Assembly (NCBI RefSeq): GCF_023923205.1
Contig: NZ_CP099490.1
Span: 1,054,001 to 1,118,000, forward strand
DNA: 64,000 nt
Source: Ornithinimicrobium cryptoxanthini
Lineage (GTDB): Bacteria > Actinomycetota > Actinomycetes > Actinomycetales > Dermatophilaceae
Direction of reading: 5' to 3'
Positions within the stretch are counted from its first letter, which is position 1, and each line of letters opens with the position of its first letter. The notes under the pieces were generated by a model that had not been told where the DNA came from, did not search any database, and saw only the letters and a program-made list of their open reading frames with translations. The translations under genes were made by a program, and so were the position numbers. Below, piece by piece: positions 57,252 to 63,020 of this stretch.

Positions 57252-60200
57252 CTACCGCGTCGGGCAGGTGGGACGGTAGGGGACCGACCCGAAGTACTGC
57301 CCCCATTCCGCGTCCGTGAGATCACGCCCGGCGGTGTCGCAGGCCGCCTGGACCCAGTCCGTCGGGTCCAGGGTCAGACTGCTGGCCTCTGCTCCACCGA
57401 TGACCACCAGGCTTCCGTCAGGTCGGATGTCGGAGTAGGCGCCAGGCAGCGGCCCACCGAAGGACTCGAGCTCGGGCAGGCTCCAGAGCCGGACGGCCCC
57501 CGTCGCGTCATCGGAGGTGACCATCATGGAGCCGTCGTCAGTGAACTGGAAGTTGACCAGCGGCATCGGGAGGCCGCCCGCCTCCTGGAGGGGACGCAGG
57601 GTGGTCGGCTCGCGCAGGTAGACCCGTCCGCTCTGCGAGCTGGTCACCAGCTCCCCGGTCGGAGCAAAACCGGCAGTGACCCCGGTCCACTGCTTGACGA
57701 TCAGCTCGGGTGTCGTCCCAGTCAGGTCCCACACGCCGGTGAGGTCGCCGACCGAGGCCACCAGTTGTGGCTCGTCCGGGGCGAAGTCCACCTGGATGAC
57801 GAACCGGGCCTCCGGACTTCCCTCCAGGTCGTCGAGCACCGCCGTGGTCTCCAACGAGCTCGGGTCGTGCAGCTCGACCAACCCACCGATCCGTCCGCTT
57901 GCCAGCATGGTTCCGTCGCTGTTGACCGCCAGCAGCGTGGGCACCCAGTGCGACACCGACCCGCCCGTGACCGGCCCGGCGACCGGCGCGCCGGTGCCGG
58001 TGTCGTATGCCGTGAGCTCACCCGGGCAGTACTCCCGGCTGGTCAGCTCGGTCCCCGTGCAGGACAGCACGTAGACGACGTCCTCGTCCGGATGGAAGGC
58101 CAGCCCAGCGACGCTGACGATGTCCGGGTCGGGGATGTCCAGTGTCACCAGGGGTTGCAGCGTCCTGCCATCGAACAACCGCGCCCCATGACCCCAGCCG
58201 GCCATCGCCAGCAGCTCACCGCTCGGGCTGAAGGTCGGGATCCCGGCGCCGAGCTCCGTCAGCGGGGCGACCGCCGGGCTGGGCACGTCGAGGTCCCAAC
58301 GGGTCACCTCACCGGCCGAGCCGACCGTGACCAGGTCGCCGTCGGACAGGAACTCCAGATCGATGGTCTCGGTGGCGATCGGGAACGCCTGTTCGAGCCG
58401 TCCCTGTGGTGTCCCGGGGAACTGCCAGACCATCGCCTGGTTGAAGGCTGCGACTGCGATGCGCTGACCGTCGGGCGAAGCCGCCAGGGAGACCGTCACG
58501 TTGTCGTGTGACAGAGGGCCCTCGATGATGCGCAGCGGGTGGTCGGCCAGCACGTAGGTGGCTCCGTCGAAGGTCGTGGCAACCACCTGGTCGGTGCCCG
58601 GGATGGTCGCGAGGTCGAAAACCGCCGGTTCGTCGGAGTCGGGCAGGTCGACCACGCCGTCCGGGGCCGTGCCTTGCTCATCGCTCCCCGGCTCAGCCAC
58701 GACGGAGCCGGGTGTCTCGGTGGACGGGGCGACCCAGGCGTAGACCCCAGCGACCGTTCCGGCATAGACCCTGCTCCCGTCACTGCTCCAGGCGACGGCG
58801 AGCAACGGGTCGGCAGGGTCTGGCGTGCTCAGGCGCGCGCGGACCTGCCAGGAGGTGGTGTCGACCAGCCGGACCGTGCCGTGGCTGGTGACGGCCAGGG
58901 TGCTCGAGTCGGGGCTGAAGGCCACCTTGGACTCCTGCCCGATGGGAGTGTCCAGGGTCGCCACGGGCTGGTCCTCTCCGATCCGATGCACGACCACGCC
59001 GGTGCCGTCGGTGGAGTCTCCGCCCGAGGCAACCATCCCGGCGGCGGCGTCCAACCCGCCCCCGATCGGGAAGACGGGCACCGGGACGGGTCCGAGCACC
59101 ACGGCTGCCGTCTCCAGGTCAAACACCGTCAGCTCCCCTTCTGGGCTGAGAACGGCCGCGACCCCGGAGTCGGCATCGACTGCCAGTGCCTGGAGACCGG
59201 CCGGTTCCTCATAAAGCAGGGTGCCGACAGGACGTGGGTTGGACAGGGCGGTGAGCAGGCCTCGGCGGGTGTGTGACGAGTCATCCATGAGGTAGGCCTC
59301 GGTCGCGAGCAACAGCGCAAGTGGCCAGTCCTTGTCCGCCACGTCGTTGGCCGAGGCCAGCAGACCGGCCACCGCCGCCTGCGCCCGGGACTCGGCGGCC
59401 AGTGCGTTGTTGTGTGCCGAGAGTCCCCGCTCCACCGCGACTGCTCCGATGGCCACGACGACCACGAGCGCCGCGGCGAGCAGCCACCGGTGCCGGCGCA
59501 GTCGGCGGTTGCCCTGCTCGCGCTGTTGCGCCGCTTCGGTTGCCGCCCTGACCTCGTCGTCGCGCTGGGCGCGGCTGGCAGCAACGAACGCCGCCACATC
59601 CGGTGGAGCTCCGGTGGGTGGCAGCGCCTCGATCGCCCGGTCCAGACGCGCACCGCGCAGCAGCGCACCGCGGTCCTGACCCAGCTCGCGCCACTGAGCC
59701 GCGGCACGAGCGAGGTCGGCCAGCTCCCGGTGCCGCGCCTGGTTGCCCTCCACCCAGCGTCGCAGCCGCGGCCAGTGCTCGACCAGTGCCTCGTGCGCCA
59801 GTCCGACGGTCGGTTCGCGAGTGTCCAGTCGGCGGTCTGCGGAGAGCAACCGGGCGGCGATCCAGGTCTCCATCAGTCGGTGCAGGTCGGCGCCGTGCTC
59901 CGGGCTCACCGCCTTGACCTCGGACATGGTGATGCGGGTGCCGATCGGTTCTCCGGCGGAGACCACCACCAGCCTGCTGAGCAGCTCGGCGAACAACTGC
60001 TGCTCCGTGGCGCTCAGCGTGCTGAGCATGCTCTCCGCACGCGACCCGATGGCGCCCTCGACCCCGCCCAGGGCACGCAGAGCTGAGAGGGTCAGTGCCG
60101 GCTGCCCCCCGCTGGCCAGCTCATGGAGGGTGAACTGGAGGGCGGGCAGGGCTGCGGGTCGTCCGGCAACAGCAGCGACGAGCTCGCTGGTCAGACCCGG

Positions 60201-62240
60201 CTCCAGGGTCAGCCGGTTCACGGCGGGCCCCCGCACCGCCGCCTCAAGCTCGCTCGGGGTCATCGCCGCGACCGGCAAGGTCGCATCGCGCAGCAACGGA
60301 CCAAACGTGGGGTGGGCCAGTGGGCGGTCGAAGTAGTCGGCCCGGACTGTGGCGACCACACTCAGCGGGCAATCTTCCGCGGTGCTCGCGTGGGCCAACG
60401 CGTCGAGGAGCGCTTCGGCAGCCTCCGGCTCGGCGTGTGAGTAGATCTCCTCCAGCTGGTCGACGACCAACAGCAGACGCCACCCGGAAGGCGTCAGCGC
60501 CCGGGCGACCCGCGCCAGCCCCTCCGGCTCCTCAAGTGACACGACCGTGTCTGCGGTGGACGTGGTCGCGACTCGCCGTAGCGCCTCGGAAAGACTGTCC
60601 AGAGGGTCGGAGCCGGGCACCATGACCGTGATCAGCCAGCGCGGCTCGGCCGACCGCCGGAGGCGAGGCAGCAGGCCGGCTCGCACCACACTTGACTTGC
60701 CGCTGCCGGAGCCGCCGACGACGGCGAGGAGCCTGCTGTGGGACACCAGTTCTTCCATGCGCTCGATCAGGGCCTCGCGCCCGAAGAAGCGATCGGCATC
60801 CTGCTCCTCGAACCGGCGCAGTCCGACATACGGGTTCCCCGGCTGATGGGCACTGGCACGCAGGTGCGCCAGGACGGCGGTGACGGTGCTGTGCACCGCC
60901 CCGCCCGGGCCGTCGTCGGCCGGTTGCACCGCCCAGTCATGGCGCTCATCGGGGGAGGCGGCAGCGAAGCAGACCCGGACCAGCTCGACATACTGAGCCG
61001 CGTCGTCGAGTCGTCCCGCGTCGCTGGTCCGGAGCGCGCGGTCACCGAGATAGGCCTCCCCGGCCGCGTCGAAGAAGACGTTGTCCGAACGGACATCCCC
61101 GTGCGTCAGGCCACGCGCCGCGTAGTCGAGCAGCGCTCCACCGACTCGTTCGGCGACGTGCCGAGCCATCGGGGGAGTGATCGCCTTCTTGGTCAGCTGG
61201 TCCCGCAACGTGCCGCCGGTCATGCGCTGCATCACCAGGGCCGCGAGGCCTGGCTCACGCCACGCGTCGTAGATCGGCACGACAGACGTGCTGTCCACCG
61301 TGGCGGCCGCGTGCGCGTCCCGCTCGAAGGTGCGGACCACGGTCACGTCGTCGGCGATCTCGGGACGATAGACCCGCACCGCATACTCGCGGTCCACTCC
61401 GGGCAGGCGGGCACTGAACACCGTCCCGCGCGGGCCACTGCCGAGTCGCTCGCCGAGCTGATATCCGCGCAGGGACTGTTCGGCCTGGACGAGGTGGAGC
61501 AGGTCGGGTTCCCCGGCAAGGATCCGTTCGTGCAGCTGGACCAGGTCCGGACCGGGGTCGATGCCCAGCTCGTCGCTCAGCTTCGTCCTGTGCTGCCGAT
61601 AGAGGGTCAGTGCTTCTGCGGTGCGACCAGTCGTGGACAGGGCGAGCATCAGCCGCGCGGTCAGGTTCTCCCGGAACGGGTCTTCGAGGAGGACTTCGCG
61701 CAGGTTGGGCACCGCGTCGCTGCCGTGACCCACGAGCATCTGCGCGTCGGCGAGGTGCTCGACAGCCGTGACGCGCAGGTCCGCCAGCCGCTGAGCCTCC
61801 CCGCTCACCCACCAGGTCGCGTCCATGCCCTGGTATGCCGCACCCCGCCAGAGCTGGAGAGCCTGGGACAACGTAGCCGCGGCAATCGTCGGGTCCCCGT
61901 ACTCCAGGGCTCGGCGACCCTGCCCCACCAGCTGTTCGAAGTGTGCTGAGTCCAGGGCCTCGTCCGGCACGTGCAGCACATAGCCGCCGTCGGTGTGCCC
62001 CACCGCCAGATCTGTGCCGAGCTTGTGCCGCAGCCGGGTCAGGTAGGTGCGCAGGGTCGCCTCGGCCTTCGGACCCGCCTGCTCGCCGAAGACTGCCTCC
62101 ACCAGGCGATCGACGCTGACCGGGCGGTTGCGCGTCACCAGCAACGTGACGAGCAACCGACGCAACCGGTCACCGGCCAGGTCGACAGGCTCGCCGTCTG
62201 ACGTCACCTCGAGTGGCCCTAGGACTGCGTACTCGATCAT
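57252..62240 (-). CDS. Giant SARP regulator: DNA-binding, BTAD, pseudokinase, nSTAND NTPase, TM helix, WD40 propeller
   Basis: A 1662-residue multidomain protein. Residues 1-92 are an OmpR-type winged helix and 95-245 a BTAD TPR region, together a SARP. Residues 258-430 follow a Ser/Thr kinase fold (GERLGSGPRGTVF). However, the ATP-anchoring Lys reads Arg289 (YAVRVYR) and DFG reads LGD, although HGDVRSDN is kept, so it is probably a pseudokinase. Residues 480-890 form an nSTAND-type NTPase with Walker A GGSGSGKSS (509-517) and Walker B LLLVVDQLEE. One membrane helix (about 920-938) precedes about 700 residues of WD40-like repeats. By topology the DNA-binding end is cytoplasmic and the propeller extracytoplasmic. 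Matching heptamer repeats occur in its own and the divergent promoter. Confidence 0.9.
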   Translation of the reverse strand: MIEYAVLGPLEVTSDGEPVDLAGDRLRRLLVTLLVTRNRPVSVDRLVEAVFGEQAGPKAEATLRTYLTRLRHKLGTDLAVGHTDGGYVLHVPDEALDSAHFEQLVGQGRRALEYGDPTIAAATLSQALQLWRGAAYQGMDATWWVSGEAQRLADLRVTAVEHLADAQMLVGHGSDAVPNLREVLLEDPFRENLTARLMLALSTTGRTAEALTLYRQHRTKLSDELGIDPGPDLVQLHERILAGEPDLLHLVQAEQSLRGYQLGERLGSGPRGTVFSARLPGVDREYAVRVYRPEIADDVTVVRTFERDAHAAATVDSTSVVPIYDAWREPGLAALVMQRMTGGTLRDQLTKKAITPPMARHVAERVGGALLDYAARGLTHGDVRSDNVFFDAAGEAYLGDRALRTSDAGRLDDAAQYVELVRVCFAAASPDERHDWAVQPADDGPGGAVHSTVTAVLAHLRASAHQPGNPYVGLRRFEEQDADRFFGREALIERMEELVSHSRLLAVVGGSGSGKSSVVRAGLLPRLRRSAEPRWLITVMVPGSDPLDSLSEALRRVATTSTADTVVSLEEPEGLARVARALTPSGWRLLLVVDQLEEIYSHAEPEAAEALLDALAHASTAEDCPLSVVATVRADYFDRPLAHPTFGPLLRDATLPVAAMTPSELEAAVRGPAVNRLTLEPGLTSELVAAVAGRPAALPALQFTLHELASGGQPALTLSALRALGGVEGAIGSRAESMLSTLSATEQQLFAELLSRLVVVSAGEPIGTRITMSEVKAVSPEHGADLHRLMETWIAARLLSADRRLDTREPTVGLAHEALVEHWPRLRRWVEGNQARHRELADLARAAAQWRELGQDRGALLRGARLDRAIEALPPTGAPPDVAAFVAASRAQRDDEVRAATEAAQQREQGNRRLRRHRWLLAAALVVVVAIGAVAVERGLSAHNNALAAESRAQAAVAGLLASANDVADKDWPLALLLATEAYLMDDSSHTRRGLLTALSNPRPVGTLLYEEPAGLQALAVDADSGVAAVLSPEGELTVFDLETAAVVLGPVPVPVFPIGGGLDAAAGMVASGGDSTDGTGVVVHRIGEDQPVATLDTPIGQESKVAFSPDSSTLAVTSHGTVRLVDTTSWQVRARLSTPDPADPLLAVAWSSDGSRVYAGTVAGVYAWVAPSTETPGSVVAEPGSDEQGTAPDGVVDLPDSDEPAVFDLATIPGTDQVVATTFDGATYVLADHPLRIIEGPLSHDNVTVSLAASPDGQRIAVAAFNQAMVWQFPGTPQGRLEQAFPIATETIDLEFLSDGDLVTVGSAGEVTRWDLDVPSPAVAPLTELGAGIPTFSPSGELLAMAGWGHGARLFDGRTLQPLVTLDIPDPDIVSVAGLAFHPDEDVVYVLSCTGTELTSREYCPGELTAYDTGTGAPVAGPVTGGSVSHWVPTLLAVNSDGTMLASGRIGGLVELHDPSSLETTAVLDDLEGSPEARFVIQVDFAPDEPQLVASVGDLTGVWDLTGTTPELIVKQWTGVTAGFAPTGELVTSSQSGRVYLREPTTLRPLQEAGGLPMPLVNFQFTDDGSMMVTSDDATGAVRLWSLPELESFGGPLPGAYSDIRPDGSLVVIGGAEASSLTLDPTDWVQAACDTAGRDLTDAEWGQYFGSVPYRPTCPTR

Positions 62241-62279
62241 CTGACCTCACCCTCCGCCGCGCACGCTACGGGAGGGCTG

Positions 62280-62297
62280 TTGCATCTGCGTTGCACC
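62280..62297 (-). promoter_or_regulatory. Candidate SARP operator of the giant regulator gene
   Basis: On the minus strand: GGTGCAA (62297-62291), 4 bases, GATGCAA (62286-62280), an 11-bp period as in known SARP sites. Eleven bases further on is TAGCGT (62268-62263), a plausible -10 for the regulator gene. Confidence 0.65.
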
Positions 62298-62421
62298 GGG
62301 TCCAGCCACCTGCCAGGCGTCCTCTGTCACGAGAATCCGCAGGTCAACGGGCGGGGAGGGGCCACCTGGTTCGGCGGGGTGCGGTGTCGCTGACGAGTGC
62401 CACCAAGGGGTGGGCGGCAGG

Positions 62422-62439
62422 GGTGCAACCCCGGTGCAA
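62422..62439 (+). promoter_or_regulatory. Candidate SARP operator of the repeat lipoprotein gene
   Basis: GGTGCAA (62422-62428), CCCC, GGTGCAA (62433-62439): two identical heptamers with an 11-bp period. Eleven bases further on is GATGGT (62451-62456) at the -10 position, mirroring the site on the other strand. Confidence 0.65.
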
Positions 62440-62492
62440 ACCGTGCCCCGGATGGTGATGGAACGCACCACCGCTACCGAAGGAGCACTGAC

Positions 62493-63020
62493 ATGAACAC
62501 GAAGCCAGCCACCAAGACCGCGGGACGCATGACCGTCCATGGCGCCACGATACTCTCGCGTCTGCCGTTGAGAGCCTCGCTTGTCGCGATGCTCGCCGCG
62601 GGATGCGTCAGTGGTGGATACGAGGTCGCCCCTGACGGGCCCCCGTTCAGGTTATCCGGCTCAGCAGCTGCAGTCACCGAGGACGCCGAGGATGACACCG
62701 GTCGCTACCTCCAGCCCATGCGTCCCATGACGTGGGAGCAGTCCGAGGACCACCGCCGGCAGCTGCGGCACGCCGAGGCACTCCGGGACCGCGAGGCCAC
62801 CGATGAGGCTAACCAGCCGCAGGCGATGACGTGGGCAGAGTCGGAGGACCACCGCCGCCTGCTGCAGCACGCCCAGGTGCTGCGCCAGCGCGAGCGGGCG
62901 ACCACCGAGGCCGGCGACCAGCCGCAGGCGATGACGTGGGAGCAGTCGGAGGACCACCGCCGACTTGTGCAGCACGCGCAGCGTCAAGAACACCAGGCAA
63001 ACGAGAGTTCCGTGAGGTAG
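62493..63020 (+). CDS. Secreted or lipid-anchored protein with three MTWxxSEDHRR repeats
   Basis: A 175-residue protein from ATG 62493, with GAAGGAG upstream. The N-terminal signal region ends SLVAMLAAGC, an imperfect lipobox. After a short linker come three copies of a roughly 36-residue unit built on MTWEQSEDHRRQL, MTWAESEDHRRLL and MTWEQSEDHRRLV, each followed by a charged helix (xHAxxLRxRE) and joined by ANQPQA or GDQPQA. No known domain was recognised. The gene is divergent from the giant SARP gene and shares its heptamer operators. The last 37 bases overlap the convergent SDR gene. Confidence 0.85.
   Translation: MNTKPATKTAGRMTVHGATILSRLPLRASLVAMLAAGCVSGGYEVAPDGPPFRLSGSAAAVTEDAEDDTGRYLQPMRPMTWEQSEDHRRQLRHAEALRDREATDEANQPQAMTWAESEDHRRLLQHAQVLRQRERATTEAGDQPQAMTWEQSEDHRRLVQHAQRQEHQANESSVR

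Follow-up and report, generated by a model that had tools for sequence, protein, structure and literature searches.

Two mirrored pairs of tandem heptamers between the genes of a probable membrane-anchored SARP and a small divergent protein, read as operators of a local two-gene circuit

In the window, by which is meant the whole 64,000-nucleotide stretch of Ornithinimicrobium cryptoxanthini DNA that was analysed, a regulator gene (1662 aa, minus strand) and a small-protein gene (175 aa, plus strand) diverge from a gap of 252 bp that holds two pairs of tandem heptamers. The features of the locus are as follows.

57252 to 62240, minus strand: regulator gene, 1662 aa, with an OmpR-type winged helix-turn-helix and BTAD (the SARP domain), a kinase-like domain, nSTAND1, a predicted transmembrane helix and a WD40 region
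59430 to 59486, minus strand: predicted transmembrane helix (residues 919-937), from hydropathy, with RRLRRHR just before it
62028 to 62051, minus strand: DNA-recognition helix RTYLTRLR (residues 64-71), aligned to AfsR R87-R94
62250 to 62255, minus strand: GGAGGG, ribosome-binding-site-like, ahead of the regulator ATG, read from the sequence
62268 to 62263, minus strand: -10-like hexamer TAGCGT, 11 nt past operator R, assigned by consensus resemblance only
62280 to 62297, minus strand: candidate operator R, GGTGCAA-CGCA-GATGCAA (in full GGTGCAACGCAGATGCAA), facing the regulator gene
62422 to 62439, plus strand: candidate operator L, GGTGCAA-CCCC-GGTGCAA (in full GGTGCAACCCCGGTGCAA), facing the small-protein gene
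62451 to 62456, plus strand: -10-like hexamer GATGGT, 11 nt past operator L, with weak consensus resemblance
62479 to 62485, plus strand: GAAGGAG, ribosome-binding-site-like, ahead of the small-protein ATG
62493 to 63020, plus strand: small-protein gene, 175 aa, with a possible lipoprotein signal (LAAGC) and three MTWEQSEDHRR-type repeats

Since the 3'-side neighbours of both genes lie in the opposite direction, each of the two genes appears to be transcribed singly. A convergent short-chain dehydrogenase gene shares its last 37 bp (window 62984-63020) with the 3' end of the small-protein gene. The regulator gene is adjoined by an ACT-domain gene, whose nearest relatives (72-76% identical) were found in five genomes of the genus. 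No match to the regulator or the small protein was found in the 14-16 kb around these five relatives, and the whole regulator gave no match at E<=1e-100 in the 30 other genomes of the genus, so that the two genes occupy a variable spot. When window positions 57252-63020 and beyond were compared with loci L101-L105, the stretch past the ACT-domain gene differed between species of the genus, and an nrdR-like gene (by eye) past the ACT-domain gene was located at about 5.5 kb in G008 and about 11.3 kb here. The pair of regulator and small-protein genes was held by no other genome searched. When related loci were sought with the whole regulator, a Myxococcales MAG gave the only match, a weak one to the kinase region, and no match at E<=1e-40 was obtained from a plasmid collection. 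In the sampled genomes of the class and phylum, and in the family, order and classes of the hits, only relatives 37-45% identical in the SARP-kinase part were found; a 56% relative, P0002, is known as a protein only.

The N-terminal part of the regulator was matched by the Pfam families Trans_reg_C (residues 25-77, 30.6 bits, cut-off 26.2) and BTAD (residues 96-241, 143.5 bits, cut-off 22.1), and it is the combination of an N-terminal OmpR-type winged helix with BTAD that defines a SARP regulator. The subsequent parts were matched by a partial protein kinase (residues 260-400), by nSTAND1 (residues 470-857) and, more weakly, by WD40-type families in residues 1068-1594, among which the general WD40 family was the only one above its cut-off. 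Against the NCBIfam equivalog for AfsR the regulator scored 147.3 bits, below the cut-off of 1430, and nSTAND1 and WD40 stand in place of NOD and TPR. Active kinases carry a lysine, HRD and DFG at the places of the catalytic motifs, where the kinase-like domain (window 61041-61463) has by eye AVRVYR, HGD and GDR instead, and the domain is thus probably an inactive pseudokinase.

A search with residues 1-470 of the regulator returned 768 proteins, and 25 from the best 120 of the 768, all near full length and with the window's own among them, were aligned. In 25/25 the most hydrophobic 19-residue stretch begins at residues 897-964 (919 in the window), and arginine-rich letters such as RRLR precede the stretch in the aligned proteins. 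Four cysteines past the stretch are kept in 23, 23, 23 and 25 of the 25 rows, and two single cysteines ahead of it in 17/25 and 20/25. Comparable hydrophobic stretches (at least 2.15) were present in 17 of 20 further translated loci; the three without one comprise this genome's own AfsR-like gene and two genes truncated at contig ends (L059, L064). The pattern of cysteines and hydrophobic stretch fits an outer WD40 half with disulphides, and, judged by hydropathy and cysteines, the regulator is most likely a receptor-like protein with a membrane anchor.

The small protein matched no Pfam or NCBIfam family at E<=0.001 and was found in 1/58 genomes searched, its own; in a large protein database it fell into two clusters, itself and P0122 (64% identity over 78%). 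By eye, a possible lipobox is formed by LAAGC in the small protein and LATAC in P0122, following a long N-region and followed by the MTWEQSEDHRR repeats. Because the long conserved region ahead of the hydrophobic stretch is atypical for a signal peptide, export of the small protein is considered probable, not certain.

Both heptamer pairs exist exactly as the first-pass annotation had described them, as confirmed by direct reading of the sequence, and re-measurement of the coordinates returned the same 11-bp period (intra-pair spacers of 4 nt in operators R and L) and the same 11 nt to TAGCGT and GATGGT. On both sides the order of elements is identical, namely heptamer pair, 11 nt, -10-like hexamer, ribosome site and ATG, with 22 nt from hexamer to start codon on the regulator side and 36 nt on the small-protein side. 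TAGCGT agrees with TANNNT; GATGGT retains only the A and the final T and is a poor -10. Placing the hexamers at -12 to -7 would give leaders of about 16 and 30 nt and a centre at -30.5 for the 22-bp boxes. A sigma-70 consensus scan of positions 62200-62560 detected no promoter, as is expected where promoters need an activator. In SARP operators the downstream repeat lies at a short fixed distance from the -10 element (8 bp in the literature), and the box lies over the -35 region. The corresponding distance in the window, from heptamer end to -10-like hexamer, is 11 nt, and the predicted box centre of -30.5 is close to the -29.5 of AfsR. A SARP operator has at least two heptameric direct repeats with an 11-bp period; each pair here has two, and tandem heptamers of this period are a known SARP operator (PMC3367932).

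The protein encoded next to the sites might bind them while only one of the two promoters is its target, or while its own gene is repressed. Such a precedent exists in PimR, for which one bound region between two divergent genes was described with pimM as the identified target (PMC3367932). Against a single target, the window has two separate pairs in mirrored orientation, both followed at the same distance by a -10-like hexamer of their own, and an arrangement with one target or with self-repression seems unlikely.

The SARP part of the regulator can be aligned to AfsR and EmbR of solved structure. In the AfsR complex, template-strand T-38 is contacted by R92 and G-36 by T88 (PMC10936776); these two residues align to R69 and T65 of the regulator, so that both contact residues are present. 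Among the 25 aligned proteins the R92-equivalent is R in 25/25 and the T88-equivalent is T or S. Counted from AfsR position -40, T-38 and C-36 correspond to the third and fifth heptamer letters, and all four heptamers have T and C there. The AfsR repeat is given in a review as CGTT(T/C)ATCGNN (PMC10972967), and GGTGCAA equals it at letters 2, 3, 5 and 6 and differs at letters 1, 4 and 7. The contact residues of the regulator would accordingly suit the contacted heptamer bases, a match that is consistent with binding, not proof of it. A candidate covariation of helix and heptamer (RTYLTRLR with GGTGCAA, QVYISNLR with CGCTCAA) was dropped, the working orientation of CGCTCAA/TTGAGCG being uncertain.

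In the whole 3.77-Mb genome, the pattern GGTGCAA-N4-GRTGCAA gave two exact matches, both in the 252-bp gap. With up to two mismatches it gave 14 matches as compared with 18 for a reversed control pattern, so no wider target set stands out in the genome. In 396 sampled genomes of the phylum, its own included, seven exact matches in six genomes were obtained, two of them in the gap, and the control pattern gave three; within 1.5 kb on either side of the five exact pairs in other genomes, no match to the SARP domain of this regulator (E<=0.01) was found. These counts bear on the possibility that the sites are used by another OmpR-type regulator, either PhoP or the second SARP of this genome. The PHO boxes that PhoP recognizes through an OmpR-type domain likewise consist of 11-nt direct repeats, with the core GTTCACC (PMC6988585), AfsR and PhoP share sites (PMC6988585, PMC10972967), and this genome does carry a second SARP-STAND gene (L075). 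The window heptamers, however, differ from GTTCACC at 2, 3, 2 and 3 of 7 letters, a global regulator would be expected to have further sites where no other exact match occurs in the genome, and the second SARP-STAND gene (L075:4364-4380, G000 near 1237363) has its own distinct upstream repeat, ATTCAC-N5-ATTCAC. Use of the sites by another regulator is judged quite unlikely.

Chance was assessed by a motif-blind test, in which two 4-nt-spaced heptamer pairs with one common consensus were sought in 252 bp (maximum score 28). The gap scored 27/28, a score attained by 0/4000 dinucleotide shuffles (top shuffle 26), and the runner-up among 506 window tiles scored 24. When spacers of 2-15 nt were permitted, 27 was attained by 0/1000 shuffles but by 5/506 window tiles, the gap included, so that the signal resides in the 4-nt spacing. 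Allowing up to two mismatches, the plain pattern was matched twice in the window against a shuffle mean of 0.37; this is weaker evidence, two having been reached in 5/100 shuffles. The heptamer pairs thus exceed the chance expectation. That they are nevertheless chance repeats in GC-rich DNA, for which the shortness of the pattern and the poor -10 GATGGT could be cited, is very improbable given the 0/4000 shuffles and the unique location in the genome. An origin of the 18-bp arms as an inverted repeat of another kind, for instance an invertible promoter or the terminal sequences of a small mobile element, was rejected as the least probable explanation of all: the arms are mutually inverted with 15/18 positions equal, but the 4-nt spacers contain two of the three mismatches, and each arm on its own forms a direct repeat. 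The genome has no further exact match to the arm pattern, and by eye no direct repeat was seen at the flanks.

Within the family, a match to regulator residues 1-470 (E<=1e-30) was found in 52/186 genomes, its own included, with identities of at most 43% among the matches listed apart from the window's own gene. The family set (n=30) was composed of 29 loci from other genomes, a part of the places listed, and the second SARP gene of this genome; its loci are not independent, since the species are related, and L032 and L039 share an identical upstream stretch. Among direct repeats of 6/7 or better that begin between -75 and -35, period 11 was found in 11/30 loci and no other period from 6 to 25 in more than 4/30; for 7/7 repeats the figures were 5/30 at period 11 and at most one at other periods. 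At 10/30 loci the repeat pair was followed by 12 nt and CA[CG]A[CG]T. These counts suggest that 11-bp repeats are common in SARP-STAND promoter regions, with letters that vary from gene to gene; those upstream of the second SARP-STAND gene of this genome are likewise unlike the window repeat. Upstream of the AfsR-like genes of L025-L047, TTTCAC- or CTGTCAC-type 11-bp repeats were observed, which may be boxes of the SARPs themselves or PHO-like boxes; the TTTCAC-type letters resemble PHO boxes (cf. PMC6988585).

The distant set was composed of nine loci in eight genomes with a common SARP-kinase start (37-45% identity). A divergent neighbour with a signal-peptide-like start (by eye) was present in 5/9 (G780, G905, G952, G953 and G958). 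In G345 a lipoprotein-like gene lies upstream in the same direction as the SARP gene, in the second G673 copy the divergent protein has a hydrophobic start and no assignable class, and no exported-looking divergent neighbour was found in G752. In the main G673 copy (L057), which is the closest relative with a genome, the divergent gene product looks by eye like a ribbon-helix-helix antitoxin and unlike an exported protein.

The exact heptamer GGTGCAA is not retained in the more distant relatives examined. Clean 11-bp tandem heptamers of other letters precede an exported-protein gene in three genomes (G952, G953 and G958), and 7/7 tandem heptamers beside a divergent exported-protein gene occur only in G953 and G958 among the nine. 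In these two, TTGAGCG-N4-TTGAGCG is directed toward the divergent secreted-looking protein, with equal heptamers and different spacers, a third repeat after the pair in G958, and an orientation relative to the regulator gene unlike that in the window. The two divergent proteins are 49% identical over 81 residues; at L113:7158-7628 and L064:754-1101, related small secreted-looking proteins are encoded divergently from giant SARP genes, with tandem TTGAGCG between. In G952 the pair before the divergent protein is weak (5/7). An exact pair, TTGAGCG-TGGA-TTGAGCG, stands just ahead of a lipoprotein gene downstream and overlaps the stop codon of the giant SARP gene (L112:1400-1417 and 1354-2490). 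Repeats of 6/7 only were found in G780, G905, G752 and the second G673 copy, and none in G345. In the main G673 copy, ACCGCAA-CACG-GGTGCAA begins 38 nt before the ATG, without room for a usual -10, and an additional 7/7 TGCCACG pair is located further up.

Six gaps, that of the window among them, have a divergent exported-looking neighbour (G953 and G958 being related); in these, period-11 repeats occurred in 5/6 and 7/7 repeats of this period in 3/6, with 4/6 and 2/6 for the next best periods. In the ten close upstream regions, the 6/7 level was reached or exceeded by repeats of period 11 in 8/10 and of periods 12, 13, 21 and 30 in 7/10, and 7/7 repeats had period 11 in 4/10 as against at most 2/10 otherwise, which is the only one of these two counts that stands out. 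CAA-CAA at 11 bp was found six times in the ten close regions (window included, both strands), and other spacings from 5 to 25 at most twice. The period-11 excess in the ten close regions is suggestive, not strong, and no 11-bp excess was found in a far group of 10 SARP genes.

The interpretation given by the first-pass annotation is supported in part. Its reading of the pairs as SARP operators is well supported, and this reading and the two-gene circuit both draw on the anatomy of the gap, the uniqueness of the site in the genome, the conserved DNA-contact residues and the 11-bp repeats at other SARP-STAND genes; the absence of the exact heptamer from distant relatives stands against them. 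With a probability of roughly 0.68, the heptamer pairs are operators of the adjacent SARP, and the membrane-anchored regulator activates its own gene and the small-protein gene in a local circuit; it would be local because no further exact site exists in the genome. Binding, activation, topology and the part of the small protein as partner are what we infer from the sites, their geometry and uniqueness, the domain order, the hydrophobic stretch and the conserved cysteines, which are read directly from the sequence. The predicted transmembrane helix, which the first-pass annotation did not contain, changes the mechanism that would be envisaged. The DNA-binding, kinase-like and nSTAND1 NTPase domains would be located inside, followed by one transmembrane helix and a WD40 propeller outside, alongside which the small protein would also be located. 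If the propeller received a signal, alone or together with the small protein, the NTPase would change state and release the SARP domains, two of which would bind side by side on each 22-bp site over the -35 region and recruit RNA polymerase, whereby the regulator gene and the small-protein gene would be activated.

The known role of SARPs is to activate antibiotic clusters. On the above reading, if true, one group of them would work as receptors at the surface and control DNA while anchored in the membrane, their operators would be predictable from the gap beside the SARP gene, and the group would gain a target gene and a testable partner. Tentatively, and at somewhat below even odds, there may be a family of membrane SARP receptors, built of SARP, kinase-like domain, nSTAND1, transmembrane helix and outer WD40 propeller, which pass signals directly from the cell surface to the promoter and are often paired with a small exported protein, in which the operator maintains the receptor and drives the partner, forming a self-contained circuit that moves between lineages while the operator letters change with the receptor. 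In the literature searched, which most subscription papers lie outside, no study of the group and no description of membrane-anchored SARPs or of a recurrent exported neighbour was found.

In ToxR/CadC-like regulators, an N-terminal OmpR-type winged helix is joined by one transmembrane helix to an outer C-terminal part. The window regulator shares the winged helix and, by prediction, the single transmembrane helix and the outer C-terminal part, and differs in having BTAD, a kinase-like domain and an NTPase before the membrane and a WD40-like outer part. The words BTAD, SARP and WD40 are absent from the main text of a 2023 survey of transmembrane regulators (PMC10269533). With AfsR of Streptomyces coelicolor and its afsS promoter, the window shares the SARP domain with the recognition residues T88 and R92, the two 11-bp direct repeats at the -35 region (a predicted position in the window) and the STAND-type NTPase behind the SARP domain (PMC10936776). 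AfsR differs in its NOD and TPR parts, the words WD40 and transmembrane being absent from the main text of the same report (PMC10936776), and it binds further promoters (PMC6988585). PimR, a SARP-LAL regulator of Streptomyces natalensis, is like the window regulator in being a large SARP with a divergent target gene and a single target region, both presumed in the window, and its heptamers have an 11-bp period, 4-nt spacers and the letters GCAA in common with those of the window (PMC3367932). It differs in the heptamer CGGCAAG, where the window has GGTGCAA or GATGCAA, in having three copies, which leave the -35 box uncovered, in a regulator gene as target and in an LAL-type ATPase half (PMC3367932). 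The divergent arrangement of a SARP gene and its target is thus already known from PimR (PMC3367932, PMC5930380).
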